From Cantharellus purpuraceus (Eukaryota > Basidiomycota > Agaricomycetes > Cantharellales > Hydnaceae), in assembly GCA_025174535.1 (NCBI GenBank), contig JALBUN010000006.1, positions 1,054,001 through 1,118,000 of the forward strand: a stretch of 64,000 nucleotides of DNA. Reading direction: 5' to 3'. The notes beneath the pieces were generated by a model that worked only from the letters and a program-made list of their open reading frames with translations, made no database searches and was not told the origin of the DNA. A program made the position numbers and the translations under genes. Position 1 is the stretch's first letter. Each line of letters begins with the position of its first letter. Shown one piece after another: positions 13,891 to 54,226 of the stretch.

Positions 13891-14353
13891 TCAGCCCATG
13901 GCAATAGGAAGTTTTGCCTGTTCTCTGAGAGTCTCAACGCTCGTCGAGACAGGTGAAATAAGTTCTGTTGCGCGTTCAGTTGAAGTAGGAGAATCAAGCG
14001 TTGGTCCGTTGATAATGAGAGCGAGTGTGTGTGACTGGGCATGGTGAAAGTGTAGCCATCTGCTGCTCATAATCATCTCAGCTTCAAGCTTTCGAGAACC
14101 GAATAGGAATTTCACCCGTCATTAAGAGGGATACGTCCAGTGGAATCAACTTCTGTCCAGCTAAGTAATTGTGATATAGCTTGTAGCTCTGCCTCCGGTA
14201 AATCACCACGACCTAACTGCGCATCAGCGGCGACCGTTGAATTTTCCAAACAAACGATTTACCTGCTATTGGAACATGAAACTGGTTGAGAAGTAGAACA
14301 GCCTTGGTACCACGAGCTTGCAGCGCGGCGTTGAGGACGTGGTCTAGCGTCAT
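13891..14353 (-). CDS. Small three-exon gene, 119 aa; possible Roadblock/LC7-like fold
   Basis: Exons 14353-14263, 14212-14116 and 14062-13891 give exactly 360 nt. The protein begins MTLDHVLNAALQARGTKAVL and ends KLPIAMG. Both introns are GT-AG and the frame is open only when they are removed, which argues for a real gene even though no single exon is longer than about 57 codons. The pattern (N-terminal helix, then a beta strand AVLLLNQFHVPIAG, then a long helix EAELQAISQLLSW, then strands around RWLHFHHAQSHTLALIING) resembles the alternating helix/strand order of Roadblock/LC7 or LAMTOR-type small scaffold proteins. That resemblance is weak and is inference. It is divergent from APC1; the two start codons are 58 bp apart. 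Confidence 0.7.
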
Positions 14354-14411
14354 TCAGAGAACGCGTGTTCAGACTCCGCAACGCGTCGCCATAATCTTAT
14401 TCTTATGGGCC
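14354..14411. promoter_or_regulatory. 58-bp divergent gap between the small gene and APC1
   Basis: The start codons at 14353 (minus) and 14412 (plus) are back to back, so promoters and 5' leaders must overlap each other or the opposing coding sequence. No TATA box is evident. Position is seen in sequence; regulatory role is inference. Confidence 0.45.
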
Positions 14412-17400: not shown

Positions 17401-20400
17401 CTTATTGCCGGACATATATGAAGGGTGGGCGGATCCCAAGCGACAGGGTATGTACTTTTCCTCACATGCACTTCTTGCCTTTTGTTTAGCATCAACAGGG
17501 GAGTTTGCCGACCCCCGACTAAAGGCTCAGCCTCCTGATGTCTACGCCCACCTTTTCACCCGACTTGCTGATCCCAATGCAAAACTTATTTGGGCCACTA
17601 TCCCGCATATCTCACAGCTCTATCAGTTTGAACCGGCGATGTGCACAGGACGCTTCGACCCAACAGGTCATATGTACCGACTTTTCAGCATCTGGGACTG
17701 TTTTGCGGATCCAACTGTCCCCACTGCACGTAAACGAGCCGAGAATGCACTACAAGTCATGGTTCGGTCAGGGTTTTCTAATGATGATTTAGACCGGCTC
17801 CCATATGGCATCGCGCAGCCAATTAGGGAGTGTTTGAGAACGTCTCAATCGTTTCCGGGGCAAGATTGGCCAGCACAAGCGTATCACTTAGCTCTCAGGC
17901 CAGATTTGGCACAGATGGTGTCAGGCGATGCCGGTCATACTGCTTCGAGAGACAGTTTCCGACGAGTGGACAAACATTTCGTCAGTCCCCTCAGTCAATG
18001 ACCTCACTACATTTTTCCACTCACATTTCCTTCTATTGCAGGATCCTTCTGGTTCAAGAATGGCTGTTGGAGGCCTGGTAGAACAAGTTCAAACATTCAT
18101 GTCCCCAGAACCACCTTCCACGTCGGGCGTGGACCTTAATCTCGGGGATTTCACCGACATTCGGTTTGGAAACGATCGTCGTCTGCAAGAGGTTGCACGT
18201 ATGCTACAATCTTCCTCACCTGCAGTCATCATGATGCCTGAGAGACCTGATCTTTCGTGAGTTCGCTGTCACTTTGAGAACTTGAATGTCATGACCTGTA
18301 TTGCAGAGAACACGAAGTTGCGCGGGAGCAGCAGACGATGGCTCTCCGCGTTGCCGAGAGAACAATGGCCCTCCCAGTCGGACGTGCCATGTTTACATTC
18401 GGCTCAGTGCCTACCGTCATGCGAGATGCATATCAAATCCCTAGAATGGAGTTCTCAATCCGCCTGCAACCTTATAGCACGCTAGTCACCGTCGAAGGCA
18501 ATAAGATGAACACCGAGGCAAGGAATTGGGCAGATTTTCATAATGGCGTAGCTGCCGGCCTACGCATATCTCCGTCGTCAAAGATGGTTGACAGCTCCTG
18601 GATAACTTACAATAAACCTACGGAATTGACGGCGCAGCATGCTGGTTTCTTGTTCGGGCTGGGGCTCTCGGGGCATTTGAAAAATATGTTGACTTGGCAT
18701 ACGTTCTCGTACCTCACTCCAAAGCATGACTTGACATCCATCGGCGTACTTCTTGGGCTATCTGCTGCTAATGTTGGTACAGCGAACCGACACGTTACTA
18801 AACTCTTGGCTGTGCATACCCCAGCCTTACTCCCCAACCCCTCTGTTGACCTGAACGTGCCCATGTTGACGCAAGCTGCTGGGCTGGTCGGAATTGGGCT
18901 ATTGTACACTGGCACGAGAAATCGGAGGATGGCGGAGGTTGCCCTGCAGGAGATTGGTCGAACGCAAATTAATTCTGCAGACCAGACAACCGACCATCGC
19001 GAGGCATACTCGTTATCCGCAGCCCTGTCATTTGGTATGATCATGTTAGCAGCCGGAGTTACCCGCTCGAGTCCGGCGGATATGAATATGGTGTCCCGTC
19101 TTCGACTACTGATCCATGGCGAACCGATCCTTCCCAGCAATCAAACAAACAAACTGAGTTTTGACGTCACATTGACATCCGCTCCGGCGACTCTGGCATT
19201 AGCTCTTATGTTCTTAAGAACTGGACGACAAGACATTGCTGATATCCTCTCGGTCCCGAGTACACTTCTTGAACTCCATCATCTGCAACCAAGCTTACTT
19301 CTCGTGCGCACACTCGGGCGCGCGTTGATTATGTGGGAACAAATAACGGCGACGCCGCAGTGGGTGACGGATCAACTGCCAAAGACTGCGCTGGAAGCTC
19401 TCGAGCAGCGTATGGCGGGCAAGCATATTGACGAGTCTCTGGAATTGGCATATTTCAACATCATCTCTGGGGCATGTTTCGCCATAGGTCTTAAGTATGC
19501 TGGCACTGCCCAGGAAGATCCGTACTCTTGTCTGCTTCATTTCCATGATCAGTTCACCCGTGTATCCAACCAAAACAGTGAGTAGCTTTATTTACTCTCG
19601 GTGTCGGTGTGGCGATATATTCTTCGTTTCAGGTGGGCAGTTTGACCATCGAATAAAGCGTGCGGCTGTTCGCGATGGGCTTAACCTGACGTCCTTGGCT
19701 CTAGCAATGGTAATGGCAGGCACGGGAGAGATCAACTGCCTGCGCAGGTTCCGATTTTCTCATGGTCAGACTCTGCAGGCCAGTCGGTACGGTGTCCATA
19801 TGGCGACGCACATGGCGATTGGACTATTGTTCCTCGGAGGTGGTCGATATACACTGGGAACATCGGATTCAGCGATTGCATGTCTCCTAGGGGCGTTCTA
19901 TCCTCGATTCCCGACGTTATCGCATGAGAATCGCGGTCACCTGCAGGCTCTGCGACATTTATGGGTACTTGCTGTTGAACCTCGTTGTCTCATGGGTCGT
20001 GACGTCGAGAGCAAGGAAGTCGTGTATCTGCCAGTCAAAGTGAAGCTACGAGAGGGGAAAGAAACGCGATCTGCGCAGCTCATCTCGCCAACATTGTTTC
20101 CTGATATTAACAAACTTTTATCCATTCGCGTTGACACGCCGCGTTATTTCCCATTTTTCCTCGACATTGCGAACAATCCTCGACATCGAGACGTACTGCT
20201 TCGAAATCAGACGCTGTGGGTGAAGCGGCGGACGGGGCACTTGGGATATGGTGAAGACCCACGCGGAAGTCGCAGCATCTACATCCGCTCAGGTGCCTCC
20301 TCGGGCGATGCTGCGGTTCTTGATAACCCCAAAGCGTCGGATGCTAAATCTGAATCAGCAACCGAGTTCTACCAGTTTATTTCTTCGTTCTCAAACGAGG

Positions 20401-21110
20401 CATTCTACGTGGCGTTTGTGGATCGGTTCTGCCGCAGCGACGGGGAGGAAGAGAATGAGCTAGTATTGTCTGCGTTCAGCCACGCAGCGATGCTCGAGTG
20501 TCTCACGCTAGACCGGCCTCACATGCTCTTGACGTACCTTAGCATCCACCTCACACGCCACGCGCGCCCGGGGTCGTCTCCCCTCCACACGCTCGCAGTG
20601 CGCGACCTGACGTGGCTGGATGAGTTTTACAAGAACATCTACGACGCACGGTTCAGCGGGAAGAGCGACAACGCGCCGATGCCCCCGCTGATGCGGCGAC
20701 CTTTGCTGCTGGCTGCTGAGCGCGCTGTGGATTCGCATATGGCGCAATTGCGTGCGGATCCGGACATGCACGAGGCTTTGCGGCGGTACCACTGTGGCGA
20801 AGGAATTACACTACCAGGGCCGACGTCGTCAGCAGAGCGGAATAGGCAAACGCGGTTGCTGAGGCTGTTGGCGTTTTATTTGACGCGAACAAATGTACCT
20901 GCGGGGAGTGTGCTAGCGCAGCTGCGGGAGGAGACGCGGGCCACGCATGCGGAGGCTGTGGCAGCAGTGGGAGAGGGGGATGCGGGGAAGAAAGTAGAGA
21001 GTGCGGTGAAGGGGCTGCTGTGGAATACGGGGGTATTGTTTGCGGGAGGTGCTTTGAGGCCGTGGTCGATGAAGGCGTTGAACGAATGTATTGCGCTTTG
21101 GGGAGAGTAG
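14412..21110 (+). CDS. Anaphase-promoting complex subunit 1 (APC1/Cut4/BimE)
   Basis: Largest scaffold subunit of the APC/C ubiquitin ligase, which drives cyclin B and securin destruction in mitosis. Five exons: 14412-16231, 16342-17980, 18042-18256, 18307-19577, 19633-21110; 6,423 nt, 2,140 aa, close to the family's usual ~2,000. The N-terminal part has the WD-like APC1 signature (VVLSTGSVILRRWTLDYEGQ), followed by a long Pro-rich disordered insert (15180-16030). The proteasome/cyclosome (PC) repeats lie at about residues 1335-1700 (GFLFGLGLSGHLKNML, IGVLLGLSAANVGTANRHV, AAGLVGIGLLYTGTRNRRMA, LALAMVMAGTGEINCLRR). The C-terminus has the conserved end domain finishing ALNECIALWGE. A 42-nt GT-AG-like stretch at 17448-17489 is in frame and could be an extra intron. 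ATG 14412 (MAAEVFT) is preferred; upstream in-frame codons overlap the divergent small gene. Confidence 0.95.
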
Positions 21111-23453
21111 GATGGGGTGGCGGTGGCTAGACGTGGACTGTATTCTCTGTGGACAAGTGTATGCATTAATAATATATCACTACTGTCTCGAGCATACTTC
21201 ATGAAAAAATCGTGCCTTTGGCTCTGTGCGACGACTTTGGGTGTCCTGCTATTGTGACACAGTGCGACCTGCTGTCCGATCACAAGGCCTTAAAGATACT
21301 CAATATATACCCAACGTGCGTCGCTCTGTTCTAATTGAAAAATGCCACTATAATAATAGATTGACATTTTGAAATCCACAACCCGAAATCCACAATGTGC
21401 TACCTGGAGTTTGGACACTAGACTTGCCACCACAACCCAAAACCCAGGAACTCGGGCGCCATCGTTGCGTCGGGCGTCTAAATACTATAATGCAAACAAC
21501 CCGCGAAATAGAGAGGTCATTCACACAACGCTACTGGTTTGCATGTTCACTCGGTGCGTCATTCATAGGGTTTTTGTGGCACCTGCGTTGCTGTGACCTT
21601 GCCGGTATCGTCATACCCAGTACTGGCAGGGCGTAGGAATGAGAGGACGAGGAGAGGAGAAGGGAGGTACGCACGGCGAGGTGCTGCGGGCTGATGGTGT
21701 CGAGGAGCTCGAGAACTATAAAGACGCAGGGGCCCATGAGTTGGCAGAGCTGACGGAGACCTTATTAAGTTTGCAGTTGGAGTCATTCAATATCGGGCTT
21801 ATTTATGCGGCCTTTTCATTCGACTGTTGTGCGGGCTGGGGCTTTCTGCTATAAGGAAGAGATAAGAGGTATTGGGGAAATAGCTGTGTATGATGATGAG
21901 GGGGTTTTGGCCACTGAGACCTGAGACCTGAGAGATGGGGTCGTGTGGAGATGGCAAAGGTACTCAAGGGGTCCGCTCTGGGCTGTTGATAGAGCAGGGG
22001 AAGACGAGGACGAGGGTCACCTCGTAGCGTGTGCATGCGACCGTGCGGCTGGATGCTGAGGAACATGCGATCTCATGCTTGATGAGAGCTGTAGCTCCCT
22101 GGTGTCGCTCTCGACGAACCTTGCACGGCCAAAGCCTCGCATGGCACCCCATCTCGTCTTCTCCTTCATCCTATCTTCATAATCGCCCTCCTACTGCATC
22201 AATATCTGCGAATTTGACGAACATCACAAGGCTCATACATCAGGCGTCTGTTTTCCCACTCCAACCTATAAACCATCACGAAGTGCAATAGAGCAGGACC
22301 CTATGTCGAAATAATCAAAGTACGTAAATTCTTCATTCACATTCATCTATGCGCTACGCCCTCCATTGTCGGAGCAGCAGTCTCATCCGCCACGTCTGAT
22401 ACGTCAGATGCATGAAACAGTTGTCGAATGTCATGTCCACGCAGCGACATGCGCACTCCCATCAATGCATCAACCCACATCGAGAGTTTCTCAATCAAAC
22501 ATGTTAGGTGAGGTTGATACGGAATCAAGGTATACCTCTAACCCGCTCCTCATTGAACAGGTGGCATTCTCACACATTCACGGGATCCCGGAGGAGCCTG
22601 GACCCAAATCATGCAGGAAACAGCATAGCCCCAGTACTTGGTCAGCCCGAAGATCCAGTGACTGGGGTACGGCTAGAAGCAAGTCAACTGGTTCAACCTA
22701 GATGCACTCAAAGACAAAATGAAATAAATAAGACGGGGGAGCTTGGTGACGCATCTTAGCAAGTGCACGCATCAAACTCTGAGAATCATCGCGATGGAAA
22801 AAACCTGCGGCAGTCCGAGTCAACAATGCTTACTGTCATTATTTTCTTGCTTTTGCTGCATGGCTGTCCAGGCGCTGGACAGATTCTACTTGCCGCATAC
22901 AGCGTTTACGTGAGGTTCAAACAACGTCCATACGTGCTTCAATCTCACTTGGGTGATCGTGGGCAACCTCGGTTCAAAAAGATTAGGTGCACAATCTAAC
23001 GCTAATATTTCATTGGTAGCAAAACTGATATAGAAGAATAGACACAGTGAAAGGACTCTGATTGGCAGGACATGTTCTCTTACATCCGAGGTAGGGTTTG
23101 ATGGGATATGATATGGGTTTCAGCCCGTTAAGAAGTCAATTGCAATGGCACTAGGGTGCTTCACTTTCTTACCGTAAAATTTTGCAATCAACAAACTTGA
23201 TCACCGTTATTAGTTCGATCACCCAGTATTCAGCCGGAATGCATACTAATCATAGATGCGTAAGTATACAGTCAATCGCCATCACCAGTATTTGGCAAAC
23301 TGAATTGTTTAGTCACAGAACTCAGTCTGATATTTAAATTGTCCTATTCGTGTACAAGACCAAAGGTTCACGCACATGTATCAGGATTCAATCCGGGGCA
23401 TCCAGGGCATCAAATAAGCAGGCGAGGTGAATGACCCATCATCTCGCATTAAC
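21111..23453. other. 2.3-kb gap between APC1 and the palindrome
   Basis: No confident gene. On the minus strand, 22150-22015 reads as a possible exon (RHQGATALIKHEIACSSASS, ending before a GTGACC) and 21745-21660 as another (LRQLCQLMGPCVFIVLELLD). I could not join them into a consistent frame. The rest, 22260-23450, holds only short unconnected frames. Confidence 0.4.
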
Positions 23454-26400
23454 GTCTTCATACTTAAAGGCGGAATGGTTGGCAGAGGCTGCTTAGGCCA
23501 TCGAGATGGCTCACTTGTGGTTTACCCTCCTTGCCTCTGGCTTCCTGCTAGTAGTCCTTGTCCAGGGAACCCCCATAGCGCATGATTCTCCTACTGTCAC
23601 GCTCGATGATGCCACCTTTCGCGGGTCAACCTCTGGTCCCATCACCCGCTTCCTTGGTATTCCCTTTTCCCAGCCACCGTGAGTGGTCGACATGTAACTA
23701 GAGCTTAAATGATGACGCAGGTCGCCTCAAGGACTGGAGACTTTCGATTCCGCCTGCCAGTGCCGGTTAAATACACCAATGGCACGCATGACGCTACTGC
23801 GTTTGGTCCCTCATGCCCTCAGCAAGCCATCCGATTACCCCTTCCTAGTAGCCTCCCCACCGACACTGTCAATTTTATCACCGATTCCATATTCCAACTC
23901 GTCCTGCCTGATTCAGAAGATTGCTTGTTCGTGTTACAGACCCAATTTTTAATCACTAACGTGAGTTCTCAGGACCGTCAATGTGGTGAAACCCACGTCC
24001 ATTCCTGCCGGACAAAAGTTACCAGTGGTGGCGGTAAGCTCCATATACTTCCTGGTCTGTCTTGGTTGTTCACGGGCTGCCAGTGGATATTTGGAGGAGG
24101 GTTTGAGTTTGGAGGTCCCTCGATGTATGATGGAGGTGTCATTGTTCAAACATCAATTGACATGGGTCAACCGGTGATTTACGTGAGCATGAATTACCGG
24201 CACGTGTGAACCAGTTATCCCTCAGGTCTGGTGTTGACGAAAGCGACTGCAGAGTATCCCGTGTGTTTTACTTCATCACTATGACCAGGGTCGATGCTGA
24301 CACGACGCACTAGTGTTTGGTTTCCTCGCGAGTCAGGAAGTGAAAGACGCTGGAGTCGGCAATCTTGGTCTTCACGATCGTACGTTTCCCTTCACCACTA
24401 CGCACGCTAAGCATCAACTGACGGGGCGCAGAACGTGAGGCATTGCGGTGGATACAAAAGTACATTGGCGAATTTGGAGGCGACCCATCAAAGGTCACAA
24501 TGTACGCATACGCAGTTCTCAAACTGATATACCCGAGATGAGTTCATCACTTGTAATTCTCATAGATGGGGAGAATCCGCAGGCGCCATCTCTGTCTCCC
24601 TACATATGCTAACAAACGGAGGAAACACCGAAGGCTTATTCCGCGCTGCATTCATGCAATCTGGGTCTCCAATTCCCGTAGGGGATATTACCCATGGTCA
24701 ACGATACTACGACGCCCTGGTGCAGGAGGTTGGGTGCAGCTCCACGTCCGACACACTCGCTTGTTTGCGGACGGTGGATTATGCCGATTTGCACGCGGCT
24801 ATGGATAATTCACCTGGTATATTCTCGTATCAGGTATACTTATCAGTCGTCGTTTGTTTTTCAGAGAGAATTGGTGATGATGGTCTTTTGTGTTGTTTAG
24901 TCTTTGATGTTGGCCTGGCTTCCAAGGACGGACGGCGCGTTCCTCAAGGATACGCCGCAGAAGTTGGTGGCTGATGGGAGTGTTGCAAAGATTCCCATAG
25001 TAACTGGTATGTATCCACGCAAACCTATTTCTGATTTACTGCTGACCTTTTCGAATAGGCGACTGTGATGATGAGGGGACGTACGTTGGGTCTCAGTTAT
25101 TTCTTGGGTTCCGATGTTGAATTTCTCCAGACTCTTTTCATTGACAAATCTCAACGTCACGTACGAAGCTCTATGCACCTATCATTATCACTGATGCTAA
25201 GCTTTTGAAACCCTCAGCTCCGAATCGGACATGCGGGAATACATCAAGAGCATCTACATTCCCGATGCCACCGACGATGACATTACACAGTTGCTCAACG
25301 TATATCCAGCCGATATCACACAGGGCTCCCCGTACGACACTGGAATATTCAATGCACTGTCACCACAATTCAAGCGTTTGGCGAGCCTCCAAGGTGATGT
25401 TGTTTTCCAGGTGAGCTGCATGGGTCTTGTTACTAGGAGCTAAGCACGAGAGCAGGCGGCCTAGGCGCCAAGACGGTATTTTATCAATCAGCTGGCGGGA
25501 AAGCAGGATATTTGGGTTTTCTGTAAGCTGGCCTAGTTGGCTTGGTCGCTGAGATCCTCTCTGATGGTGAGCGGAAAGTGAATAAACGCTTGAAAGATCT
25601 TCCCTTCTTGGGTTCCGTATGTGTCGTGACAATCCTAAAAGACATGCGACGCGGTTAATCCTGTTTCCCTCATGTAGGCTCACGCTACTGACTTGCTGAA
25701 TGTAAGTTCGCCACTCGCGCTACATTGGTGCTCATCATAACGTCTCACGCCAGGTATACAGCATTGGGGAGATGAGGAATTACTTGATCAATTTCGCCAA
25801 CACGCTTGATCCCAACTATGCCTCTGGGTTCAACTGGCCAAAGTGGACGACAGGTTCTCGCAAGTTGCTGACGTTTGAGGATGGGCTGTTTCCACTGACC
25901 TTGGGCCAGGATACGTTTAGGGAGGTGAGTGTGGGAGAGTGGTTGTCTCAAATGATGACATTGATCATGAATGTTGCCTTTATAGGACGCAATGAACTTT
26001 TTGATCAATCTCGTGTTGAAATTCCCCATATGATATGTCATACTTTATGAGGTAATCTCCCAACTTATGCACCCTGGTATGAAGTCTCTTGTGCACATGA
26101 TGTGGTTTATGGTTGTCTTTTCACTCCACATAAACAGCACTATACTGGATAGGTGTGTGTGACTGGTGATCTTTGAATCCTGTGTACTGTTGTTGGACCA
26201 ATATGACTTAATGATTATCATACTCTATGAGGTGATGGGGGCATCATGCATTGATCAAGCTTGAGCTCACATTGCCTGTTGATTTGTCTGTGCAGGCATG
26301 TTGTCAGGGTTCAAATAAGTCATATTCTATTTTTAGTATTTTCTCTTGACACCCCTATCAGCGCAGCCTGTCAGGGTGCGTCTCCCCTATTTCATTGCCC

Positions 26401-26663
26401 CTATCACTTCCCCTATCTTTCCTCCCCTATCTTGGTTCTCCTATCCATCTCCATCATTTAGTATAAAGACTCGCCTTGGTGCAGTGTGATCCCCTCAGCT
26501 TGATCTCTGAGGATATCCGCTGTACCAGGTAAGTCCCATGTATTTATCAGAAACAGCTGTATAGACTGAGGATATCTGCTGTACCAGCTGGCATTATTTC
26601 TTATCGGCTCTCACTTATTGAGTATCTTGTTGTTGTGGCCTCGTCATCAGCGTCGCCCTCACA
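23454..26663 (+). repeat. Left arm of a 3.2-kb inverted repeat
   Basis: Every position p in this arm corresponds to 57293-p on the opposite strand of 30630-33839. All translated frames I compared are identical in the two arms, and all segments compared base by base matched, including intronic and 3' flanking DNA. The outer edge is sharp: 23454 pairs with 33839, and the neighbouring bases differ. The inner edge is 26663 paired with 30630, where the arm abuts LTR sequence. The arm carries one complete esterase gene plus about 630 bp of 3' flank. Confidence 0.97.
23506..26033 (+). CDS. Secreted type-B carboxylesterase/lipase, left copy
   Basis: Hydrolyses carboxylic esters or lipids outside the cell; similar to Candida rugosa-type lipases. 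A signal peptide (MAHLWFTLLASGFLLVVLVQG) is followed by FLGIPFSQPPTGDFRFRLP, which joins two exons only if intron 1 ends at the AAG before 23740. Further conserved blocks: WIFGGGFEFGG (oxyanion region), the nucleophile Ser in WGESAG (codon 24576-24578), the Glu in GDCDDEGT (25073-25075) and the His in AHATD (25681-25683), so the catalytic triad is complete. The C-terminus is DAMNFLINLVLKFPI with TGA at 26031. About 14 exons; nearly all junctions are in phase. One junction, after VSMNYR (24190-24315), has no usable donor in the right phase and runs into a stop, so the gene may be broken there. The identical copy lies on the other arm. Confidence 0.85.
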
Positions 26664-26808
26664 ATAGTCCTGCCATTAGTGCTCTTGTTTAAGTGACTAG
26701 TGTGTACCACCTTTGCAGAGTATTAGAAGCTTGAACTTGTGTGAAGCAGTTGCTAGACTACTTCACACATTGCTGTTACCCACTTCAGAGTGTCACTGTT
26801 TAGACGGT
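26664..26808 (+). mobile_element. Truncated LTR fragment (outer host), 5' piece
   Basis: Matches the middle of the 1.4-kb LTR family (segment beginning ATAGTCCTGCCATTAGTGCT). It is truncated exactly at the inner edge of the palindrome arm and interrupted at 26808 by a smaller element. The host continues at 28794. Confidence 0.8.
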
Positions 26809-26822
26809 TGTTATGCACTAGG

Positions 26823-28275
26823 TGTATGGGAACTGGTTTTCCCTTAAAAAGATCTTGTTTAAAGTCCCAAAACTGTACAATTTCGCTTGATGGCCTTAAA
26901 ATATCAGCATATATCTGCTGCTTTCTCTTGATTCAGGGCCATTCAAATATTCTCTATTTTTTCATATTTTTTTGGGAATTTTCCATGCAGAAATGAGTCT
27001 ACAAACTTATTGTTCTGCTGGGCGAAGTTTTGGGACCCACATGGACCCACAAACCTTCGCAGATGTCAGCAGCCTCAAAGTCAGCCGGAGTCACCCGGAC
27101 AACTGACTCATTGTCGATCACATGACTCATTTCAATCTCCGACTCAATCTGGTCACCACTGCCAGTAAATGCTCAATATCTTCGCAACCACTGCACCTCC
27201 TGACTCCATTTTCAGTGGAGAGTTCAATAGAAGCCATGCCTACCCATAGCTGTGCTAATCAGCCTGGGAAACGAAGTATTGACCGAGTTATTTGAGTAAT
27301 GGTGACTCATGCAATGACTCCTGCCATGACTCATGCTATGACTCCTTCCATGACTCATACCATGACTCCTGTGATTACTCATACTATGACTCCTGCTCTG
27401 AGTCACACTATGACTCCATCCATGACTCATGCCATGAGTCAGAGCAAATCCAAGCAGCTCATTGGCTAGGAAACTTCCACCCCCTTCTCACATATTCCAC
27501 TAGCTTCCAGTAGTTTCCATCTATTAATAGGTAGAAGTTTCCAGTAGTATTAGTCAGCTCCTGTAAATACAATATAAAAGGAGCCCATTCTGCCTCTGAA
27601 TAAATAACCATTTCTACCCCATCATTTGCACATCAGTGTGACTAGAGTGACATACAGTGTCATCCTCTATATCTCAGTAACTGTTGATTGTCCAGTTCAA
27701 GGGTCGCTTACAGTTGTGTAACTGTATTCGATTGCACTCGAAGTAGTGATTGTCCTGCTTTGGGCGTGAGTGTAGTATCTACCTCGCGTGACTACGAATC
27801 TACAGGGTGAGATTGTCTGTCGATAGTCCTGCCATTAGTGCTCTTGTTTAAGTTACTAGTGTGTACTGCCTTTGCAGAGCATTAGAATCTTGAACTCGTG
27901 TGAAGCAGTTGCTAGACTACTTCACACATCGCTGTTACCCGCTTCAGAGTGTCACTGGTTGGACGGTTGGATTCATCCACCTACTTCCTCTAGCCTCTAA
28001 GTGCATTCCCCTCTTTTTGGAATATCTGGACCCCTAAGCATCCGTGAACTCTAGACTCTGGAAGTCTTATTCATTCCCTACTGCTAAGAAACGTATTACC
28101 TTCCTGCGTATCGTCTGCATTGACCATTACAACGGATTGTAACCAAAGTACAAACGTTAAATCGTTTCTGGAGTTGTGCTGCAGTAGGATTTGATATTCT
28201 TCTCAGCTGTTCATTCACGGAATTGTGGTGATTTAGAGTTTGCCCTAACACCATAATTTTGCGGGTTCCAAAACA
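26823..28275 (+). mobile_element. LTR of 1.45 kb (variant A) nested in the small LTR
   Basis: Runs from TGTATGGGAACTGG to GGTTCCAAAACA and is flanked on both sides by CTAGG (26818-26822 and 28276-28280), a perfect 5-bp target duplication inside the smaller LTR. A TATA box (TATAAAAG, 27573-27580) and an AATAAA (27600-27605) fix the sense strand as plus. Upstream of the TATA box lies a 12-bp-period array of TGACTC-type sites. No gag or pol is present, so this is a solo LTR. Confidence 0.88.
27303..27441 (+). repeat. 12 x 12-bp array of TGACTCA/TGACTCC sites in LTR A
   Basis: Twelve heptamers start at 27303, 27315, 27327 and every 12 bp to 27435. Odd units are mostly TGACTCA or TGAGTCA (the palindromic Gcn4/AP-1 type bZIP site); even units are mostly TGACTCC. 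Two further TGACTCA sites occur upstream (27104, 27123). The related LTR at 53050-54028 has only about six units. It lies about 130 bp upstream of the TATA box. Confidence 0.85.
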
Positions 28276-28793
28276 CTAGGTCCGATTGGGGGTCAGAGAT
28301 TGGGTCAGAGGTTTGGTCGGAGTTGGAGAAGGAGTCAGTTACATTGTGGGGGTCGGAATGGACTTGGCTTCAGCTTATGTGCTGCACCCTCACTAATACC
28401 GGTGTCCGAGATTTCGGAGACGGACTACAACTTAGAGAGTTAGGATCAGACTTAGGAACTAGGCATGATTTGATATTTGAACTGGGGAATGAAGTCCCCA
28501 GTCAGACAACTTAAATACATATTTGAAATCTAATAATAATTACTCCAGTGATGGGTCTCCGAGGCCAACGGCCTTACATGAGTATGTCCAAGTCCAACGG
28601 GGATGGATGTCCGGGTTCCTATGGTGATGCTGATGCATCAATCGGAACTGGAGATGGATGGGCAGAATTGGCGGTGACAATTGGACAGGTAAATGGAGAC
28701 ATGGTGGTTTCCAAATGGAGTATAGATTTCATATGCGCAGGGATCTGAGTGGATCGGACGGGGATCTGGGCGTTAATGAATATAGTCATAACA

Positions 28794-29071
28794 ATGGTTG
28801 GATTCATTAGCCTCTAAGTGCATTCCCCTCTTTTTGGAATATCTGGACCCCTAAGTGTCTGTGAACTCTAGACTCTGGAAATCATATTTGTTCTCTACTG
28901 CTAAGAAATGTATTACCTTCCTGCATATCATCTGCATTGACCATTACAAGGGATTGTAACCAGAGTACAAAAGTTAAATCATTTCTGGAGTTGTGCTGCA
29001 GTAGGTCTTCCCAGCTGTTCATTCATGGAATTGTGGTGGTGATTCAGAGTTTGTCCTAACACCATAATTTT
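28794..29071 (+). mobile_element. Truncated LTR fragment (outer host), 3' piece
   Basis: Continues the host LTR after the nested insertion (TTCATTAGCCTCTAAGTGCA onward) and ends at ACCATAATTTT, about 17 bp short of the usual LTR terminus, where the next LTR begins. Confidence 0.75.
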
Positions 29072-30491
29072 TGTATGGGAATCACCTTTTCCCTATCAAA
29101 TTCCATTTATGCAGCACCAATGTGCTATTCTTTGCTTTTCCATTCCTAAATATCAGCATATATTTGGTGCTTGTACCTGGAATGGACTTATTCAAATATT
29201 CTCTAATTTTTCATATTTTTTCGGGAATATTCCATGCAGAACTCGGCCCAGAATCATTTATTTCTGCTGTGCTACAGTTGTGGACCCATAGGCGCCCACA
29301 AACCTTCCCACAGCTGGCTATCCACCTTTGGACCAGGCATTCAGCCTGAATTCAAGCTCAGATGTCTCTGATCAATAAATATTCTCTAACTTGACAACCA
29401 CAGCCTCTCAGGGCACTATTTTCCATGCAGATCATCACATGAGATGTGGCTATCCATGGCTGTCCAAACCAGTGCAGAAAACAGGGTGGACACCCTTCTT
29501 TTTGCCTGATCAGTGCCTAGTTCAGGGATCAGATCAGCTGATGGGTGATCAGATCAGGTGATTGCCTTGGAATATTCTACCCCTTTCCATAACATTCTAG
29601 CTGTTTCCTTCTATTATTAGATAGAACTTTCCAGAACCATTATTCAGCTCCTGATCAGTGTTAGTCCAGTGATCAGAACCTGTGATTGGCTTGGAATATT
29701 CTACCCCTTTCTTCCACCTTCCACAACCTTCCAGTAGTTTCCATTCATTTATAGGTCATTAGTCAGCCCCTGTAAATACAATATATAAGGAGGTCATTCT
29801 GCCTCTGAAATAGAAACATATTCAACATATCCTACCCATCTTCTGCACACCAGTGTGACTAGAGTGACATACAGTGTCATCCTCTATATCTCAGTAACTG
29901 TTGATTACCAGTTCAAGGACCTTTTACAGTTGTGTAACTGTACTTGATTGCACTCAAAGTAGTGATATTCCTGCTTTGGGCATGAGTGTAGTATCTGCCT
30001 CACATGACTATGAATCTACAGGGTGAGATTGTCTGTCGATAGTCCTGCCATTAGTGCTCTTGTTTAAGTTACTAGTGTGTACTGCCTTTGCAGAGCATTA
30101 GAAGCTTGAACTCGTGTGAAGCAGTTGCTAGACTACTTCACACATTGCTGTTACCTGCTTCTGAGTGCCACTGGTTGGATGGTTGGATTCATCCACCTAC
30201 TTCCTTTAGCCTCTAAGTGCATTCCCCTCTTTTCGGAATATCTGGACCCCTAAGCGTCCATGAACTCTAGACTCTGGAAGTCTTATTCATTTCTTGCTGC
30301 TAAGAAACGTATTACCTTTCTGCATATAGTCTGCATTGACCAATACAAAGGATTGTAACCAAAGTACAAACGTTAAATCGTTTCTGGAGTTGTGCTGCAG
30401 CAGGGTTTGATATTCTTTTCAGCTGTTCATTCACGGAATTGTGGTGATTTAGAGTTTGCCCTAACACCATAATTTTGCAGGTTCCAAAACA
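29072..30491 (+). mobile_element. LTR of 1.42 kb (variant B)
   Basis: TGTATGGGAATCACC to GGTTCCAAAACA, same family as LTR A in its 3' half but with a different 5' third. It has a TATA-like TATATAAGG near 29783 and the same 3' region. No target duplication is visible (ATTTT left, AGAGC right), so it has recombined or is joined to element-internal sequence at 30492-30629. Confidence 0.8.
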
Positions 30492-30629
30492 AGAGCTTGA
30501 TTGAGAAACCTTTTGTCAGTGGAGATATACCATCACTTGTGGTCCCAGCTCCAAATGCATCTAGGTGGACATGAGACACCAGAGAGGGCTGAATTGCTGG
30601 AATAAGAATTGTCAATCAAACCATACATG
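30492..30629. other. Short unique piece between LTR B and right arm
   Basis: About 138 bp beginning AGAGCTTGATTGAG. It could be the start of retroelement-internal sequence (the first bases after an LTR normally hold the primer site), but no coding match is visible. Confidence 0.35.
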
Positions 30630-33600
30630 TGTGAGGGCGACGCTGATGACGAGGCCACAACAACAAGATACTCAATAAGTGAGAGCCGATAAGAAATAAT
30701 GCCAGCTGGTACAGCAGATATCCTCAGTCTATACAGCTGTTTCTGATAAATACATGGGACTTACCTGGTACAGCGGATATCCTCAGAGATCAAGCTGAGG
30801 GGATCACACTGCACCAAGGCGAGTCTTTATACTAAATGATGGAGATGGATAGGAGAACCAAGATAGGGGAGGAAAGATAGGGGAAGTGATAGGGGCAATG
30901 AAATAGGGGAGACGCACCCTGACAGGCTGCGCTGATAGGGGTGTCAAGAGAAAATACTAAAAATAGAATATGACTTATTTGAACCCTGACAACATGCCTG
31001 CACAGACAAATCAACAGGCAATGTGAGCTCAAGCTTGATCAATGCATGATGCCCCCATCACCTCATAGAGTATGATAATCATTAAGTCATATTGGTCCAA
31101 CAACAGTACACAGGATTCAAAGATCACCAGTCACACACACCTATCCAGTATAGTGCTGTTTATGTGGAGTGAAAAGACAACCATAAACCACATCATGTGC
31201 ACAAGAGACTTCATACCAGGGTGCATAAGTTGGGAGATTACCTCATAAAGTATGACATATCATATGGGGAATTTCAACACGAGATTGATCAAAAAGTTCA
31301 TTGCGTCCTATAAAGGCAACATTCATGATCAATGTCATCATTTGAGACAACCACTCTCCCACACTCACCTCCCTAAACGTATCCTGGCCCAAGGTCAGTG
31401 GAAACAGCCCATCCTCAAACGTCAGCAACTTGCGAGAACCTGTCGTCCACTTTGGCCAGTTGAACCCAGAGGCATAGTTGGGATCAAGCGTGTTGGCGAA
31501 ATTGATCAAGTAATTCCTCATCTCCCCAATGCTGTATACCTGGCGTGAGACGTTATGATGAGCACCAATGTAGCGCGAGTGGCGAACTTACATTCAGCAA
31601 GTCAGTAGCGTGAGCCTACATGAGGGAAACAGGATTAACCGCGTCGCATGTCTTTTAGGATTGTCACGACACATACGGAACCCAAGAAGGGAAGATCTTT
31701 CAAGCGTTTATTCACTTTCCGCTCACCATCAGAGAGGATCTCAGCGACCAAGCCAACTAGGCCAGCTTACAGAAAACCCAAATATCCTGCTTTCCCGCCA
31801 GCTGATTGATAAAATACCGTCTTGGCGCCTAGGCCGCCTGCTCTCGTGCTTAGCTCCTAGTAACAAGACCCATGCAGCTCACCTGGAAAACAACATCACC
31901 TTGGAGGCTCGCCAAACGCTTGAATTGTGGTGACAGTGCATTGAATATTCCAGTGTCGTACGGGGAGCCCTGTGTGATATCGGCTGGATATACGTTGAGC
32001 AACTGTGTAATGTCATCGTCGGTGGCATCGGGAATGTAGATGCTCTTGATGTATTCCCGCATGTCCGATTCGGAGCTGAGGGTTTCAAAAGCTTAGCATC
32101 AGTGATAATGATAGGTGCATAGAGCTTCGTACGTGACGTTGAGATTTGTCAATGAAAAGAGTCTGGAGAAATTCAACATCGGAACCCAAGAAATAACTGA
32201 GACCCAACGTACGTCCCCTCATCATCACAGTCGCCTATTCGAAAAGGTCAGCAGTAAATCAGAAATAGGTTTGCGTGGATACATACCAGTTACTATGGGA
32301 ATCTTTGCAACACTCCCATCAGCCACCAACTTCTGCGGCGTATCCTTGAGGAACGCGCCGTCCGTCCTTGGAAGCCAGGCCAACATCAAAGACTAAACAA
32401 CACAAAAGACCATCATCACCAATTCTCTCTGAAAAACAAACGACGACTGATAAGTATACCTGATACGAGAATATACCAGGTGAATTATCCATAGCCGCGT
32501 GCAAATCGGCATAATCCACCGTCCGCAAACAAGCGAGTGTGTCGGACGTGGAGCTGCACCCAACCTCCTGCACCAGGGCGTCGTAGTATCGTTGACCATG
32601 GGTAATATCCCCTACGGGAATTGGAGACCCAGATTGCATGAATGCAGCGCGGAATAAGCCTTCGGTGTTTCCTCCGTTTGTTAGCATATGTAGGGAGACA
32701 GAGATGGCGCCTGCGGATTCTCCCCATCTATGAGAATTACAAGTGATGAACTCATCTCGGGTATATCAGTTTGAGAACTGCGTATGCGTACATTGTGACC
32801 TTTGATGGGTCGCCTCCAAATTCGCCAATGTACTTTTGTATCCACCGCAATGCCTCACGTTCTGCGCCCCGTCAGTTGATGCTTAGCGTGCGTAGTGGTG
32901 AAGGGAAACGTACGATCGTGAAGACCAAGATTGCCGACTCCAGCGTCTTTCACTTCCTGACTCGCGAGGAAACCAAACACTAGTGCGTCGTGTCAGCATC
33001 GACCCTGGTCATAGTGATGAAGTAAAACACACGGGATACTCTGCAGTCGCTTTCGTCAACACCAGACCTGAGGGATAACTGGTTCACACGTGCCGGTAAT
33101 TCATGCTCACGTAAATCACCGGTTGACCCATGTCAATTGATGTTTGAACAATGACACCTCCATCATACATCGAGGGACCTCCAAACTCAAACCCTCCTCC
33201 AAATATCCACTGGCAGCCCGTGAACAACCAAGACAGACCAGGAAGTATATGGAGCTTACCGCCACCACTGGTAACTTTTGTCCGGCAGGAATGGACGTGG
33301 GTTTCACCACATTGACGGTCCTGAGAACTCACGTTAGTGATTAAAAATTGGGTCTGTAACACGAACAAGCAATCTTCTGAATCAGGCAGGACGAGTTGGA
33401 ATATGGAATCGGTGATAAAATTGACAGTGTCGGTGGGGAGGCTACTAGGAAGGGGTAATCGGATGGCTTGCTGAGGGCATGAGGGACCAAACGCAGTAGC
33501 GTCATGCGTGCCATTGGTGTATTTAACCGGCACTGGCAGGCGGAATCGAAAGTCTCCAGTCCTTGAGGCGACCTGCGTCATCATTTAAGCTCTAGTTACA

Positions 33601-33839
33601 TGTCGACCACTCACGGTGGCTGGGAAAAGGGAATACCAAGGAAGCGGGTGATGGGACCAGAGGTTGACCCGCGAAAGGTGGCATCATCGAGCGTGACAGT
33701 AGGAGAATCATGCGCTATGGGGGTTCCCTGGACAAGGACTACTAGCAGGAAGCCAGAGGCAAGGAGGGTAAACCACAAGTGAGCCATCTCGATGGCCTAA
33801 GCAGCCTCTGCCAACCATTCCGCCTTTAAGTATGAAGAC
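30630..33839 (-). repeat. Right arm of the 3.2-kb inverted repeat
   Basis: Mirror image of 23454-26663 (paired coordinates sum to 57293). The outer edge at 33839/33840 is sharp: GAAGAC is shared, then sequence diverges. Total span of the palindrome is 10,386 bp with a 3,966-bp core. Confidence 0.97.
31260..33787 (-). CDS. Secreted type-B carboxylesterase/lipase, right copy
   Basis: Identical in all compared parts to the left copy, on the opposite strand: signal peptide near 33787-33725, nucleophile Ser codon at 32715-32717, Glu at 32218-32220, His at 31610-31612, stop at 31260-31262. It shares the same unresolved splice junction (32978-33103), so any defect predates the duplication. Because the two genes are transcribed toward each other, read-through transcripts would be perfectly complementary. 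Confidence 0.85.
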
Positions 33840-34568
33840 CTCGGCAGTAGTAGACGTAGATATACAAGGAGGCGTCCGATCATGCACTTCGAATGATGGA
33901 GGCTAAAGCTGTTCATGTGGCCACCCATGGTGCATAGCTCGTGAAAATCATCAGGGCCAATAGGCATCATCTTGTGTGTGAATAAGCTAGTTCAGTACGC
34001 AGCCGGTGATCATTCCGAAACGCGTGACCGCCCAATATGCAAGCGCCATCCCCAGCGCCTTGTAGAGACTGAGACGACAAGGGATGCAGGAGGCGCCGCA
34101 TGGATACAACAACTATACTTAGCATCAGCTCTCAAGTTCTCAGGTGCCGGGATCAGAGAAGGTGTGGAACCATCGCCCACGGGCTGGTCACATGGCACGG
34201 CGACTCAACAGTATCGACAGTGTGCCTCTGTCGTTGTAGTAACTTTCATGTCAAAATTGTCTGTAGGTGTAACTGCTGGCTGGAATATTTAGAGGCGTTC
34301 TTTCCGAGTTTCCTTGGCTGGTCATGGAAAGTTGTGAAGCATTGGACAGTTGTTCCATGTCACAAGGGAGAGACCAAGCCTCAGCTATATATATTGGCAG
34401 GGTGCATGCTGCCTCGTACGTATTTTGCATCGTGTGGAAGCGGAGTTGAAGTGGGTGACTAGAAGATTCCCCGTCAGCTTTTCCCACGCTACTGGAGCAA
34501 ACTTTCCGACTACCTCGACGTTGCGGCGCTTCGTTTTCTCACAGCAAAAAGCTTAACATTTCAACTTC
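33840..34568. other. Unique gap between palindrome and SR gene
   Basis: Single-copy DNA with short unconnected frames only; contains the SR gene promoter side. Nothing else recognised. Confidence 0.5.
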
Positions 34569-35640
34569 ATGCCTCGTATCTTGTTTGTAAGTGGCTTTGA
34601 TCGCCATACCAGGGCGCGTGACCTTGCCTATGAATTTGAACGGTGAGTAACACGATTTTTTCCTTGTCGCCGTTGTCGTTGACTAGTGGTGGGTGGTACC
34701 AGATACGGCCCTCTTGTTCGCTGCGACGTTCCTGCGCCGCGAAATTATGCATCAGCCAGCCCGTGAGTGTCCGCTCCCGATCCGCACGCGCCGCCCTTTC
34801 TTCGAGCGTTCGCACGACCCCGAGTCGATTCGAGTCGATGCATCGAGTTTCTGCACAAACGACGTCGAAGTCTATCGCATGCGCGCATCCCACGATACGT
34901 CCCTCACTTCGATTCACGCGTTCTACACCCTCTCCCTCTCCCACGATTTCGATCTCCTTCAATTTCTCCCCGAGTTCGAACGAGTCGCTCAACAATCCCC
35001 TCATTTCTCTGCTATCGCCAGTTATGCTTTTGTTGAATTCCGCAGCACGCGTGACGCTGAAGATGCGTATTATGAAATGTCAGTCATCTATTTTTTATTC
35101 ATAAACTTGGCATGTTTAATACCTTTTTTTGCTTCCTCCTAGGCATGGTAGGAGTCTTAACGGTTATCGTCTGAGCGTCCAGGTGCGTCCTTGGTCCTGT
35201 TTGAATGTGATAAATAGTCCAAATGCTGTTTACAGTGGGCCAAGAATCCACCCTCCGCCGTCTGGCGCTACGATGGTAAACGATCTCCTCCCCGCCGCGG
35301 CAGCAGAAGAGATAGGCGTAGTCGCTCTCGCTCTATCAGCCCAAGAAGAGACCGTGACAGAGACGACGACAGGGACGACAGGAGGAAGGACCGTGACAGG
35401 GATGACAAGGATAGAGACCGTGACCGTGATGACAGGAGGAGGGACAGGGACGATGATGGTGAAGACAGAAGAAGGAGGCGCAGCAGAAGCACAGAGAGAC
35501 GCAGGAGGAGCAGAAGCAGAAGCAGTGTCAGAAGGGATGACAGAGAGAAAGAGCCCGAGGAAGCTGGTGCCGAAAGGAATGGTGACCCTGATATCGAGCT
35601 TAAGGATGATAAGGCGACCACACCTCCCCGGGCAGATTAA
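34569..35640 (+). CDS. SR-type splicing factor (RRM plus RS domain), 211 aa
   Basis: Binds pre-mRNA in the nucleus and recruits the spliceosome. Five exons: 34569-34642, 34703-34762, 35022-35078, 35143-35182, 35236-35640 (636 nt). One N-terminal RRM: RNP2 is ILFVSG (residues 4-9), RNP1 is YAFVEF in exon 3, and the domain closes at NGYRLSVQWAK. From about residue 85 the protein is an Arg/Ser and Arg/Asp dipeptide-rich tail (SRSRSISPRRDRDRD and similar), the substrate of SR-protein kinases. Size and layout match short one-RRM SR proteins of fungi. Intron 2 is 259 bp, far longer than the local norm, and retention would give an immediate TGA. Confidence 0.93.
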
Positions 35641-35887
35641 GGGCCCCCACATCGTACTCGTCCACTTCGCTAGTGAAAAAAGCCCCTGTATATGTTCTCG
35701 GCAATAACAACTATGGTCTGCTTGCTGCTGCTTGTTATTGCAACGAGACTCAGAGTTTATATTATAAGCAAAAGTTAAATTCAAGCCAACTAAATTGCAA
35801 TCAATCCGAAAGTAAAAGCCAACGAAGACGACTGGGGATTACGTCACAAATGTCACGTACGTCCTACACTTGTCAGCCACCACATCC

Positions 35888-37840
35888 ATGAGTAGCATAG
35901 CGCACAGAGTGCCAACGATTGACGATCTTCGAGTAAGGCTTTTTCAATAAGCTGCCTGAATTATCACCGGTGTTGATGCTAATTCATTCATCACTAAACA
36001 GGTCAAATTATGCTGGATATGCCGTGAGGAGGAATCTCTAGGCGATGGTGAGTCGATGCCCTGTGGACTGCTTTCGATAGTTTATTTTGTGCTGGTGACA
36101 CGAGCGGGTCGTTCTGCATTTTCGAAGCCAAGCATGCCCATCCACCAGTATATACATTGACCGGCACGACTCGACTTGAACGGCTCCCTACTCGGCCACC
36201 TTTGCGTTTTTGAAAACATCTTTGTCTCCTTCTTCTTCCTCCCAAATTTCCCCTTGTTTACTAGAGAAGTTAACCCATCTGTTCTGTCCATAGCACCTTC
36301 GAGTTCGCCAAAAGCATGGGTGCATCCATGCGTGATTTTAATCGCTTTTCTGTCCTCACACTGTTCCACTGACGAACTATCACAGTCATGTACACTGGTT
36401 GCACACCAGGATTGCCTTCTCCAGTGGATTAAAGAATCTCAATCCCAACCCTCACGGCGAGAGAACGCTCTTAAATGCCCACAATGCAACACCAAGTACG
36501 TGGAGATATATCGTTGTGTCAATCTATTCAATTTGTCCTTCAGGTATATTATACATAGTCGTAACCCCTTCGTTCTTCGTGTAATGGATAGTCTCGATCG
36601 GTTGGCCAACCGCACTGGAAAATACGCAACACTCGGGATCGTGTTTGGTATCGTTGTAACCTTTACCGGCTGTACGTGTTGCCCCATATTACTTTTCTTC
36701 ATTGGATCTGAATTTTCCATTTGTTCAGCAATCTACGGCCTTTGTATGTTTTATGGTGCTCACGCTGTTCGTGTTTTTGTTGGCGACCGACTTTATGACG
36801 TCATAGTGGGTGATGACCCCAAGGATTGGAGCTGGACCGTATATTGCAACCTTCCTCTCATTCCATTCTACCTTATTGCATCTCATGTGCGCACATTTGA
36901 TTCCACCGTCTTTTCCAGTGTGACGGTTCCAATGCTCCTCTCCCTTTCTTTTCCATCTTCCACAATCCTTGCCGCTGCACACGAGCCTTTCCCGCTACCG
37001 CAGTTTTTGGTGACATACCCGCCAACTCCAACACTCTGCCTCCTCGTGTACCCCCTCCTCCGGATGTGGTACACTCACACGCGAGACCAGATCACAAATT
37101 GGGTGTTACAGACGCAGCCCGATGAGCAGAATCGACAGGAAGCCCCAGCGCGTCGGCAGACATGGGTGCTAGAAGACAATGACAATGCTGGCGACGGTCG
37201 TGTGCTGGGGGCCGATCTTCGAATTGACCTCGATCTTGAGGGTCCGGCAAGACAACAGCAGCAACCGCAGCAGAATGAGGAGCAGGCTAACCAAGATAGG
37301 CGTCCGAATGACAATGCGGACGGAAATGCAAACCAGGATGACGATCCTGGGCACAGAAGAGTAAGGGTGACGTTTTCCTCTCTTGGGCGTTTCATTAGCC
37401 GTGTGTTGGTCACGCCATGGGTCGCCAGTTATATGGGATCATTACTCGAGTTTTTATCTCACCATTCCCTCATTTTACGCCGCGTCCTATCTCTTCATGA
37501 ACCATACACACCATTAAGGTGGATGGACAACGTCGCACGGGGATCTGGCGCATCGCAAGCACTGAGCACCGTGGGCATGAAGGCACCATGGCATGACAAG
37601 CCAGCTATGGAGCCAATCTGGTGAGATATTCTTGACATCTAGTCTTTATGAGGTGTCATTGATTATGACAGGTGGAGAAATTCGCTTGGCTTGTCTCTCT
37701 GGATTGTCATGAGAGACACTGTTACGCTTGCCCACCTCTTCTTACGCAAGCGGGAGCTACAGTCCCGCCGTATATTGAGCCGATCCTTCGCTGGTATCGA
37801 TGTAGGAACACTGGACCTTATTTCTCCTGTCGCGTTTTAA
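35888..37840 (+). CDS. RING-CH (MARCH-type) membrane E3 ubiquitin ligase
   Basis: Six exons: 35888-35932, 36002-36047, 36294-36331, 36386-36495, 36544-37620, 37672-37840 (1,485 nt, 494 aa). The RING-CH finger is split over three exons: CWICREEE, then WVHPCSC, then LVAHQDCLLQWI and LKCPQCNTKY, giving the C4HC3 zinc ligands. Several hydrophobic spans follow (GIVFGIVVTFTGCTCCPILL, then others to about residue 290), then a Gln/Asn/Asp-rich stretch (37215-37345) and a last conserved part. Such proteins ubiquitinate membrane proteins in the ER or endosomes. Exon 3 (38 nt) is needed to complete the finger. The 48-nt intron 36496-36543 is a multiple of three without stop, so its retention would insert 16 residues just after the zinc finger. 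Confidence 0.9.
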
Positions 37841-51345: not shown

Positions 51346-52042
51346 AACATTTGGAACCTGCAAAATTATGGTGTTAGGGCAAACTCTAAATCACCACAAT
51401 TCCGTGAATGAACAGCTGAGAAGAATATCAAACCCTGCTGCAGCACAACTCCAGAAACGATTTAATGTTTGTACTTTGGTTACAATCCTTTGTATTGGTC
51501 AATGCAGACTATATGCAGAAAAGTAATACATTTCTTAGCAGCAAGAAATGAATAAGACTTCCAGAGTCTAGAGTTCATGGATGCTTAGGGGTCCAGATAT
51601 TCCAAAAAGAGGGGAATGCACTTAGAGGCTAAAGGAAGTAGGTGGATGAATCCAACCGTCCAACCAGTGGCACTCTGAAGTGGGTAACAGCGATGTGTGA
51701 AGTAGTCTAGCAACTGCTTCACATGAGTTCAAGCTTCTAATGCTCTGCAAAGGCAGTACACACTAGTAACTTAAACAAGAGCACTAATGGCAGGACTATT
51801 GACAGACAATCTCACCCTGTAGATTTGTAGTCATGTGAGGAAGATACTACACTCATGCCCAAAGCAGGAATATCACTACTTCAAGTGCAATCAAGTACAG
51901 TTACACAACTGTAAAAGGTCCTTGAACTGGTAATCAACAGTTACTGAGATATAGAGGATGTCACTGTATGTCACTCTAGTCACGCTGGTGTGCAGAAGAT
52001 GGGTAGAATATGTTATTATTTCAGAGGCAGAATGACCTCCTT

Positions 52043-52624: not shown

Positions 52625-53049
52625 TCCTTATATATTGTATTTACAGGGGCTGATTAATGGTTCTGGAATATTCTGCCTATTAATAGATGGAAACTACTGG
52701 AAGGTTGTGGAAGGTGGAAGAAAGGGATAGAATATTCCAAGCCAATCACAGGTTCTGATCACTGAAATAACACTGATCAGGAGCTGAATAATGGTTCTGG
52801 AAAGTTCTATCTAATAATAGAAGGAAACAGCTAGAATGTTATGGAAAGGGGTAGAATATTCCAAGGCAATCACCTGATCTGATCCCTGAACTAGGCACTG
52901 ATCAGGCAAAAAGAAGGGTGTCCACCCTGTTTTCTGCACTGGTTTGGACAGCCATGGATAGCCACATCTCAGGTGATGATCTTCATGGAAAATAGTGCCC
53001 TGAGAGGCTGTGGTTGTCAAGTTAGAGAATATTTATTGATCAGAGACAT

Positions 53050-54028: not shown

Positions 54029-54226
54029 AGCAGAAATAAATGATTCTGGGCTGAGTTCTGCATGGAATATTCCTGAAAAAATATTGAAAAATAGAGAATA
54101 TTTGAATAAGTCCATTCCAGGTACAAGCATCAAATATATGCTGATATTTAGGAATGGAAAAGCAAAGTATAGCACATTGGTGCTGCATAAATAGGAGTTT
54201 GATAGGGAAAAGGTGGTTCCCATACA

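Follow-up and report, generated by a model that had tools for sequence, protein, structure and literature searches.

Oppositely oriented repeats can seed inverted duplications, and this mechanism is known, in the portions of the reports on which we draw here, mainly from yeast and from human disease. In yeast, inverted long terminal repeats (LTRs) at a site of ~4 kb recombine to give dicentrics (PMC5065131), and inverted duplications have been described as the outcome of fold-back, hairpin-primed copying and capture of another end (PMC3974649). In single-stranded DNA (ssDNA), inverted repeats separated by 12 bp or by 30 kb can fold back and leave inverted duplications behind (PMC10164571). Here we describe a palindrome from the basidiomycete Cantharellus purpuraceus, in which two identical copies of an esterase gene converge on a core of transposon pieces. 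It lies in a stretch of 64,000 nucleotides (assembly GCA_025174535.1, contig JALBUN010000006.1, positions 1,054,001 to 1,118,000), which we call the window and whose own coordinates are used below. The palindrome is probably a real and recent inverted duplication of one esterase gene that began at two copies of the same LTR in opposite orientation, and it adds a new example to those described in these portions of the literature.

The locus shares different features with each of the described systems, as far as the sections at hand describe them. As in the inverted-LTR fusion T-403IR-C of yeast, there are two inverted LTRs, a site of ~4 kb and a mirror-image product; the yeast products are dicentrics and isochromosomes, whereas here only the 2.85-kb non-LTR segment is mirrored and its other end is joined without visible homology (PMC5065131). 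The route that we propose would resemble the hairpin-primed duplications of tel1/sae2 yeast in its course: after a break, an end folds back on inverted homology, synthesis proceeds away from the break and another end is captured. The yeast isolates sequenced were primed by 3 to 9 bases, had loops of 25 to 44 bases and captured the end by homology, whereas here the homology is that of the 362-bp LTR, the loop would be ~4 kb and the captured end shows no visible homology (PMC3974649). Fold-back of inverted Alu repeats in long ssDNA resembles it in that widely spaced repeats anneal in cis and the inverted duplication adjoins the repeats, but that system is an experimental cdc13 mutant with duplications of ~24 or ~100 kb (PMC10164571). 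An inverted duplicated segment formed via palindromic junctions is also found in origin-dependent inverted-repeat amplification (ODIRA) and in human inverted copy-number variants, but there is no triplication here (PMC10766186).

Two perfect arms and a non-mirrored core

The palindrome is delimited as follows.

23453..23454: left-arm outer junction, where unique flank X meets the 5' edge of the esterase gene 52 bp before the ATG; no homology seen
23454..26663, plus strand: left arm, a 100% inverted match to 30630-33839; the derived copy on the simplest reading
30630..33839, minus strand: right arm, a 100% inverted match to the left arm, whose LTR has both target-site duplications; the ancestral copy on the simplest reading
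33839..33840: right-arm outer edge, the start of unique flank Y

The first-pass annotation of this DNA had described mirror-image arms whose paired coordinates always sum to 57293. A base-by-base comparison, in which each position was paired with the complemented base at 57293 minus that position, confirmed this as one uninterrupted inverted match of 3,210 bp (23454-26663 versus 33839-30630) with no mismatch. Outside the arms and inside the core, the mirror identity per 100-bp bin is 0.17 to 0.35, except in the two bins that hold an edge; it is 0.234 for the 500 bp directly outside the arms and 0.264 for the first 500 bp of the core. A repeat search returned the arm pair as the longest inverted repeat in the window, with a spacer of 3,966 nt between the arms, and among the 25 longest of the 29 inverted pairs in the window it is the only one at 100%. 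A perfect inverted repeat of 3.2 kb is not due to chance. From the outer edge inward, each arm consists of 52 bp before the ATG, the esterase gene, 268 bp of 3' sequence and a 362-bp LTR.

We then searched the whole assembly (40,153,731 bases in 50 contigs, the largest reaching up to 3.97 Mb). The full arm is matched only at its own two places, and the 38 other matches cover just its last ~365 bp, the LTR. These are the 40 matches listed from 40 scored candidates out of 487, so the copy number of the LTR is a lower bound. The arm without the LTR (2,848 bp) gave five candidates, all of which were scored, namely both arms (100%) and, matched in pieces at 67 to 73%, three paralogs. The left outer flank (22700-23453, 754 bp; X) and the right outer flank (33840-34640, 801 bp; Y) each have a single match in the assembly, which is the flank itself. 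Next to the outer edge, 6 of 20 mirrored bases agree, and X and Y show no homology to each other at the join.

LTRs at the inner edges and the elements of the core

The first-pass annotation placed two esterase arms around an LTR core. The convergent esterases and the transposon core stood up to analysis; the inner 362 bp of each arm, however, are themselves an LTR, of a family distinct from the ~1.45-kb LTR-like elements of the core. From left to right, the LTRs and the core comprise the following features.

26302..26663, plus strand: solo LTR of the left arm, 362 bp, with CATGT outside and ATAGT inside; no matching target-site duplication, as at a recombinant junction
26664..26810, plus strand: left fragment of element C, an old LTR-like element of ~1.4 kb; starts exactly at ATAGT, lacks its 5' part and matches 27823-27969 at 93%
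26823..28275, plus strand: element A, a 1,453-bp LTR-like repeat running from TGTATGGGAA to TTCCAAAACA, with target-site duplication CTAGG
28276..28806, plus strand: rest of element B, with termini GTTATG...CATAAC by eye; it interrupts C and is interrupted by A
28807..29071, plus strand: right fragment of element C, matching 27991-28260
29072..30491, plus strand: element D, 1,420 bp, a further member of the LTR-like family to which A and C belong; it lies beside C or within its end
30492..30629, minus strand: unique DNA inside the right LTR, 138 bp including the inner CATGT, with itself as its one assembly match; native 3' flank of the esterase locus
30630..30991, minus strand: solo LTR of the right arm, 362 bp, with CATGT on both sides (30992-30996 and 30625-30629), as at an original insertion

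The 362-bp repeat starts with TGTCAGGG and ends with CACA, and the inner edge of each arm is the exact end of the LTR. It has the TG...CA ends of an LTR, 5-bp target-site duplications and copies that are joined to shared internal sequence. For comparison we examined 26 other copies with their flanks, out of the 38 listed, leaving 12 of the 38 out; one partial second match (88%) in copy L004 was not counted. Eight of the 26 run into a common downstream sequence, GAAGATCAAGCT, eleven leave a common purine-rich upstream stretch, and seven are solo. The first two groups are probably the 5' and 3' LTRs of longer elements, with the shared sequences as putative primer-binding site and polypurine tract. 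Among the seven solo LTRs, four have perfect 5-bp duplications, two match at 4 of the 5 bases and one is mismatched.

The two sides of the palindrome differ in just this respect. On the right, the LTR is flanked by CATGT and CATGT and then by unique DNA, which marks it as an original insertion in native DNA. On the left, the outer CATGT is the same as that on the right because it is part of the same copied DNA, and the inner ATAGT leads into the interior of element C; at the corresponding place in the related element A the sequence is ...TGTCG/ATAGTCC. To judge from these bases, the left LTR ends like one that had been inserted at ATAGT in element C and whose other side was exchanged for the esterase copy. 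Of the putative pre-existing pair of repeats, the right one has a complete target-site duplication (CATGT), and for the left one the target (ATAGT) is seen on one side only. The two arm LTRs are identical to each other, while each of the 26 other copies differs at one or two sites in 362 bp. The arm LTR has no private base among these copies (its rarer bases at sites 146 and 276 recur in 7 and 6 of the 26), so the insertion of the LTR, which preceded the duplication, also looks young.

The use of target-site duplications as a clue is supported by element A, other copies of which have perfect 5-bp duplications at 11 of the 14 loci examined (L010-L023, taken from 42 near full-length places besides its own). 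Element A is at least 99.3% identical to each of these 14 copies. In the whole assembly there are at least 42 near full-length copies besides the one in the window, 41 of them at 96 to 100% and one at 93%. Element D has no matching duplication, with ATTTT before it and AGAGC after it; should D have inserted into the tail of C, loss of one of two tandem 20-bp repeats might account for the absence of a second copy of that tail. The core holds no stop-free stretch of at least 130 codons. Searches for RNA families at the gathering threshold and for tRNAs gave no matches.

Pieces of the A, B, C and D types are also clumped within ~4 to 8 kb on contigs C1, C3, C7, C9, C10, C15, C23 and C31, and such clumps might mark insertion-prone or centromere-like regions. 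Within the window, a second cluster of LTR-like elements, of the ~1.4-kb kind found in the core, lies at 51350-56184, with members in both orientations relative to the core elements and ~76 to 98% alike; it contains an 8-fold tandem repeat of 12 bp at 52066-52164.

Origin of the second arm

What is seen directly at this locus is a pair of perfect arms, LTRs at their inner edges, a target-site duplication that is matched on one side only, a partial element C and unique flanks. From these we infer the order of events, the mode of repair and that the right copy is the older one. The ancestral order would have been X, then element C carrying an LTR at the target ATAGT (LTR_b), the core, the unique 3' flank, the solo LTR at CATGT (LTR_a), the esterase on the minus strand and Y, so that LTR_b and LTR_a would have been inverted and separated by ~4 kb. 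The event would have begun with a break or a stalled fork on the left side of LTR_b, leaving an end that anneals to LTR_a or switches template onto it, either on the same strand or on the sister, the latter giving a dicentric. Synthesis would then have run outward through the esterase and past a degenerate TATA-like box, to stop just beyond it at 52 bp before the ATG. The new end would next have been joined to X without visible homology, with the loss of the 5' part of C and of any sequence between C and X. Fold-back, template switch and sister-chromatid fusion would each yield the order core, LTR and outward-copied esterase, and in each the copied end would need healing. The locus has two features of such an LTR-mediated inverted duplication, a mirrored segment with a non-mirrored spacer and inner junctions in inverted homologous repeats. 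At the outer end there is an abrupt join to X and the 5' part of element C is missing, which may reflect healing of the end elsewhere with loss of the distal piece. The earlier suggestion of retrotransposon-mediated fold-back or break repair is supported by the inner junctions, which lie in an inverted LTR pair with one target-site duplication intact and one not. That of a very recent, or gene-converted, inverted duplication is supported by the absence of any difference in 3,210 bp. With no differences in the 2,848 non-LTR bases, divergence is below ~0.1% (rule of three), unless conversion erased differences.

Paralogs of the esterase bear on which copy is native. Three tandem paralogs with ~70% DNA identity to the arm gene lie on the minus strand of the same contig at ~1034.4-1045.1 kb, ~32 to 43 kb to the left of the palindrome, and the strand that they share with the right copy supports the right copy as the native one; the native outer flank is likely Y. 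Their likeness to the arm starts at arm position 1 to 4, which is the outer edge, and this fits an arm edge just above the core promoter. The 52 bp before the ATG contain the degenerate TATA-like ACTTAAAGG; two of the paralogs have ACTTATAAAAGG and the third has ACTAATAAAAGG.

Several points weigh against this history. The mismatch of target-site duplications is by itself not rare, as one of the seven other solo LTRs also has no matching duplication, and the LTR copies are so alike (one or two differences in 362 bp) that the switch point cannot be placed. ATAGT joined to the start of the LTR has no exact match in the assembly when no mismatches are allowed; with this other half not found, LTR_b is inferred as a former insertion in element C from one side only. 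The junctions are known from the assembly sequence alone. In addition, a crossover between the arms could flip the core and thereby swap the inner junctions. Since identical arms can cross over in this way, the target-site duplications show one original and one recombinant junction and do not show which outer flank is native. In a comparison of the flanks with the promoters of the three paralogs (p1, p2 and p3), 110, 12 and 117 of 300 shuffles were as good for X and 123, 40 and 211 of 300 for Y. The best value, X versus p2, mildly favours X, and so speaks slightly against a native right copy, but it carries little weight among six comparisons.

The mismatched solo LTR just mentioned (L044, on contig C48) belongs to a second inverted pair of this LTR; it lies 2.8 kb from an inverted and identical LTR copy.

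C48:380766-384253: inverted pair of identical 362-bp LTRs (L044/L045/L059) with swapped target-site duplications CAGAC

The solo LTR lies between GATCC and CAGAC, and CAGAC is also found on that side of its inverted neighbour which faces it. This is the arrangement that an LTR-mediated inversion of 381128-383891 would leave, and re-inversion would restore CAGAC on both sides of the solo copy. The far end of the longer neighbour (ATTGC) is still unmatched, which indicates a further, unexplained change at this locus. Judging from these flanks, inverted pairs of the 362-bp LTR family appear to have recombined elsewhere in the genome.

Many mushroom cultures are dikaryotic, and the strongest rival to an inverted duplication, although we regard it as unlikely, is a chimera of two nuclear haplotypes. 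The esterase segment would be inverted and next to X in one haplotype and in its ordinary place next to Y in the other, the assembler would have switched between them inside the 362-bp LTR, and each nucleus would have one copy. The inner edges do lie on a repeat that has 38 or more further copies, and the duplication is known here from the assembly alone. Such a chimera would still require a real inversion with a breakpoint at the 5' edge of the esterase, and a misjoin on a repeat of 362 bp among contigs of up to 3.97 Mb. No second version of either flank occurs in the assembly, and the lack of any difference in 3,210 bp, introns included, would be unexpected between haplotypes unless polishing had collapsed them. 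The first-pass annotation had offered an assembly join of two copies or haplotypes as its alternative; the unlike outer sequences, the flanks that match once and the identical arms all disfavour it.

Long palindromes can be kept nearly perfect by gene conversion, as on ape Y chromosomes, and the identity of the arms would say nothing on their age if an old palindrome had been homogenised in this way. Identity stops sharply at both arm edges, as it would in an old and in a young palindrome alike. The absence of private bases from the arm LTR and the near identity of core element A with its other copies indicate that the locus was reshaped recently anyway; we consider great age improbable. A fold-back read is mirrored about a point and has a short spacer or none, and the centre here is ~4 kb of non-mirrored, LTR-bounded DNA at background mirror identity. 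We therefore give very little credence to a chimeric library molecule or missed adapter (from whole-genome amplification or a fold-back read), although artificial palindromes have been described for amplified DNA in long reads (PMC6218980), for the outer flanks are different unique sequences and a random chimera would have its left join exactly at the end of an LTR only by chance.

The esterase gene, its neighbours and the meaning of the probable duplication

The two arms carry one esterase gene each.

23506..26033, plus strand: left copy of the esterase, 17 exons, 548 amino acids plus stop; COesterase (PF00135) with GESAG motif
31260..33787, minus strand: right copy of the esterase, with a spliced coding sequence identical to that of the left copy

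That each arm carries an esterase gene had been recognised in the first-pass annotation; the gene model was corrected to 17 exons, including exon 5, a microexon of 8 nt. The reading frame is open throughout this model in both arms. The intron after exon 4 is GC-AG, and the other fifteen are GT-AG; the microexon and the GC-AG intron lie at 24199-24260. The GC donor is found in the palindrome gene alone, the three paralogs having GT at the same donor, and its use, which is predicted, would give the open frame. An esterase pseudogene was rejected, because the break at the junction of exons 4 and 5 in a 16-exon model was resolved by the microexon and the GC donor with the help of the three paralogs. 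An RNA-derived retrocopy was also rejected, as both arms contain all 16 modelled introns in identical form and begin upstream of the TATA-like box.

Pfam, homolog and PDB searches were made with an earlier model of 546 residues that had an X at the exon 4/5 junction. COesterase (PF00135) matches with 296 bits over residues 28-516 (profile 2-497 of 515), and this near full-length domain, the nucleophile motif GESAG and the open frame identify a type-B carboxylesterase. The protein search scored 7,993 candidates and returned 3,308 proteins at E <= 0.001. The best 120 of these have 57 to 71% identity; the top one is an unnamed Joint Genome Institute (JGI) protein, followed by one of Sphaerobolus stellatus (70%), and carotenoid ester lipase is a frequent name among them (61 to 67%). 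The nearest PDB match is 1gz7, 'LIPASE 2'. PF00135, the names of the homologs and the top PDB match all agree with the carotenoid ester lipase type of fungal carboxylesterases, which we take to be relatives of the Candida rugosa lipases; here the esterase is only the gene cargo of the duplication, and the protein showed nothing unusual. Of the 'secreted lipase' proposed earlier, 'lipase' agrees with the homology, and 'secreted' reflects a hydrophobic N-terminus seen by eye only. Two of the three tandem paralogs are 95% identical in DNA. Two paralogs have the nucleophile motif GQSAG and one has GQSSG, versus GESAG in the palindrome gene.

The likely outcome of the duplication is two open, convergent copies, of which the derived one would be cut off from the upstream promoter and left to rely on X together with ~50 bp from its own 5' end. 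The palindrome may also favour hairpin extrusion, gene conversion or small-RNA silencing, as the first-pass annotation suggested. A bolder and quite improbable idea is that the palindrome is a two-state locus, in which recurrent crossover between the arms flips the core, conversion keeps the esterases identical under two different promoters and a long hairpin RNA, made by read-through of the core from either copy, damps the whole local esterase cluster.

To the left of the palindrome (14280-21107) lies a gene for anaphase-promoting complex subunit 1, according to Pfam. To the right (34560-37621) are a gene whose product has an arginine/serine (RS)-rich C-terminus by eye and a gene for a RING-type protein, the nearest named records of which are from Gautieria (70%) and Ramaria (53%).

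In the portions of the literature consulted, the inverted duplications traced to opposed repeats were observed in yeast experiments and in human disease, and the present case is probably a natural one, in a basidiomycete. The duplication is young enough for target-site duplications to tell the original from the new junction, and it has placed one more complete copy of the gene close to a small tandem family of its kind. If our explanation is true, this locus would show in a specific instance how LTRs can multiply a lipase-type gene without retroposition.

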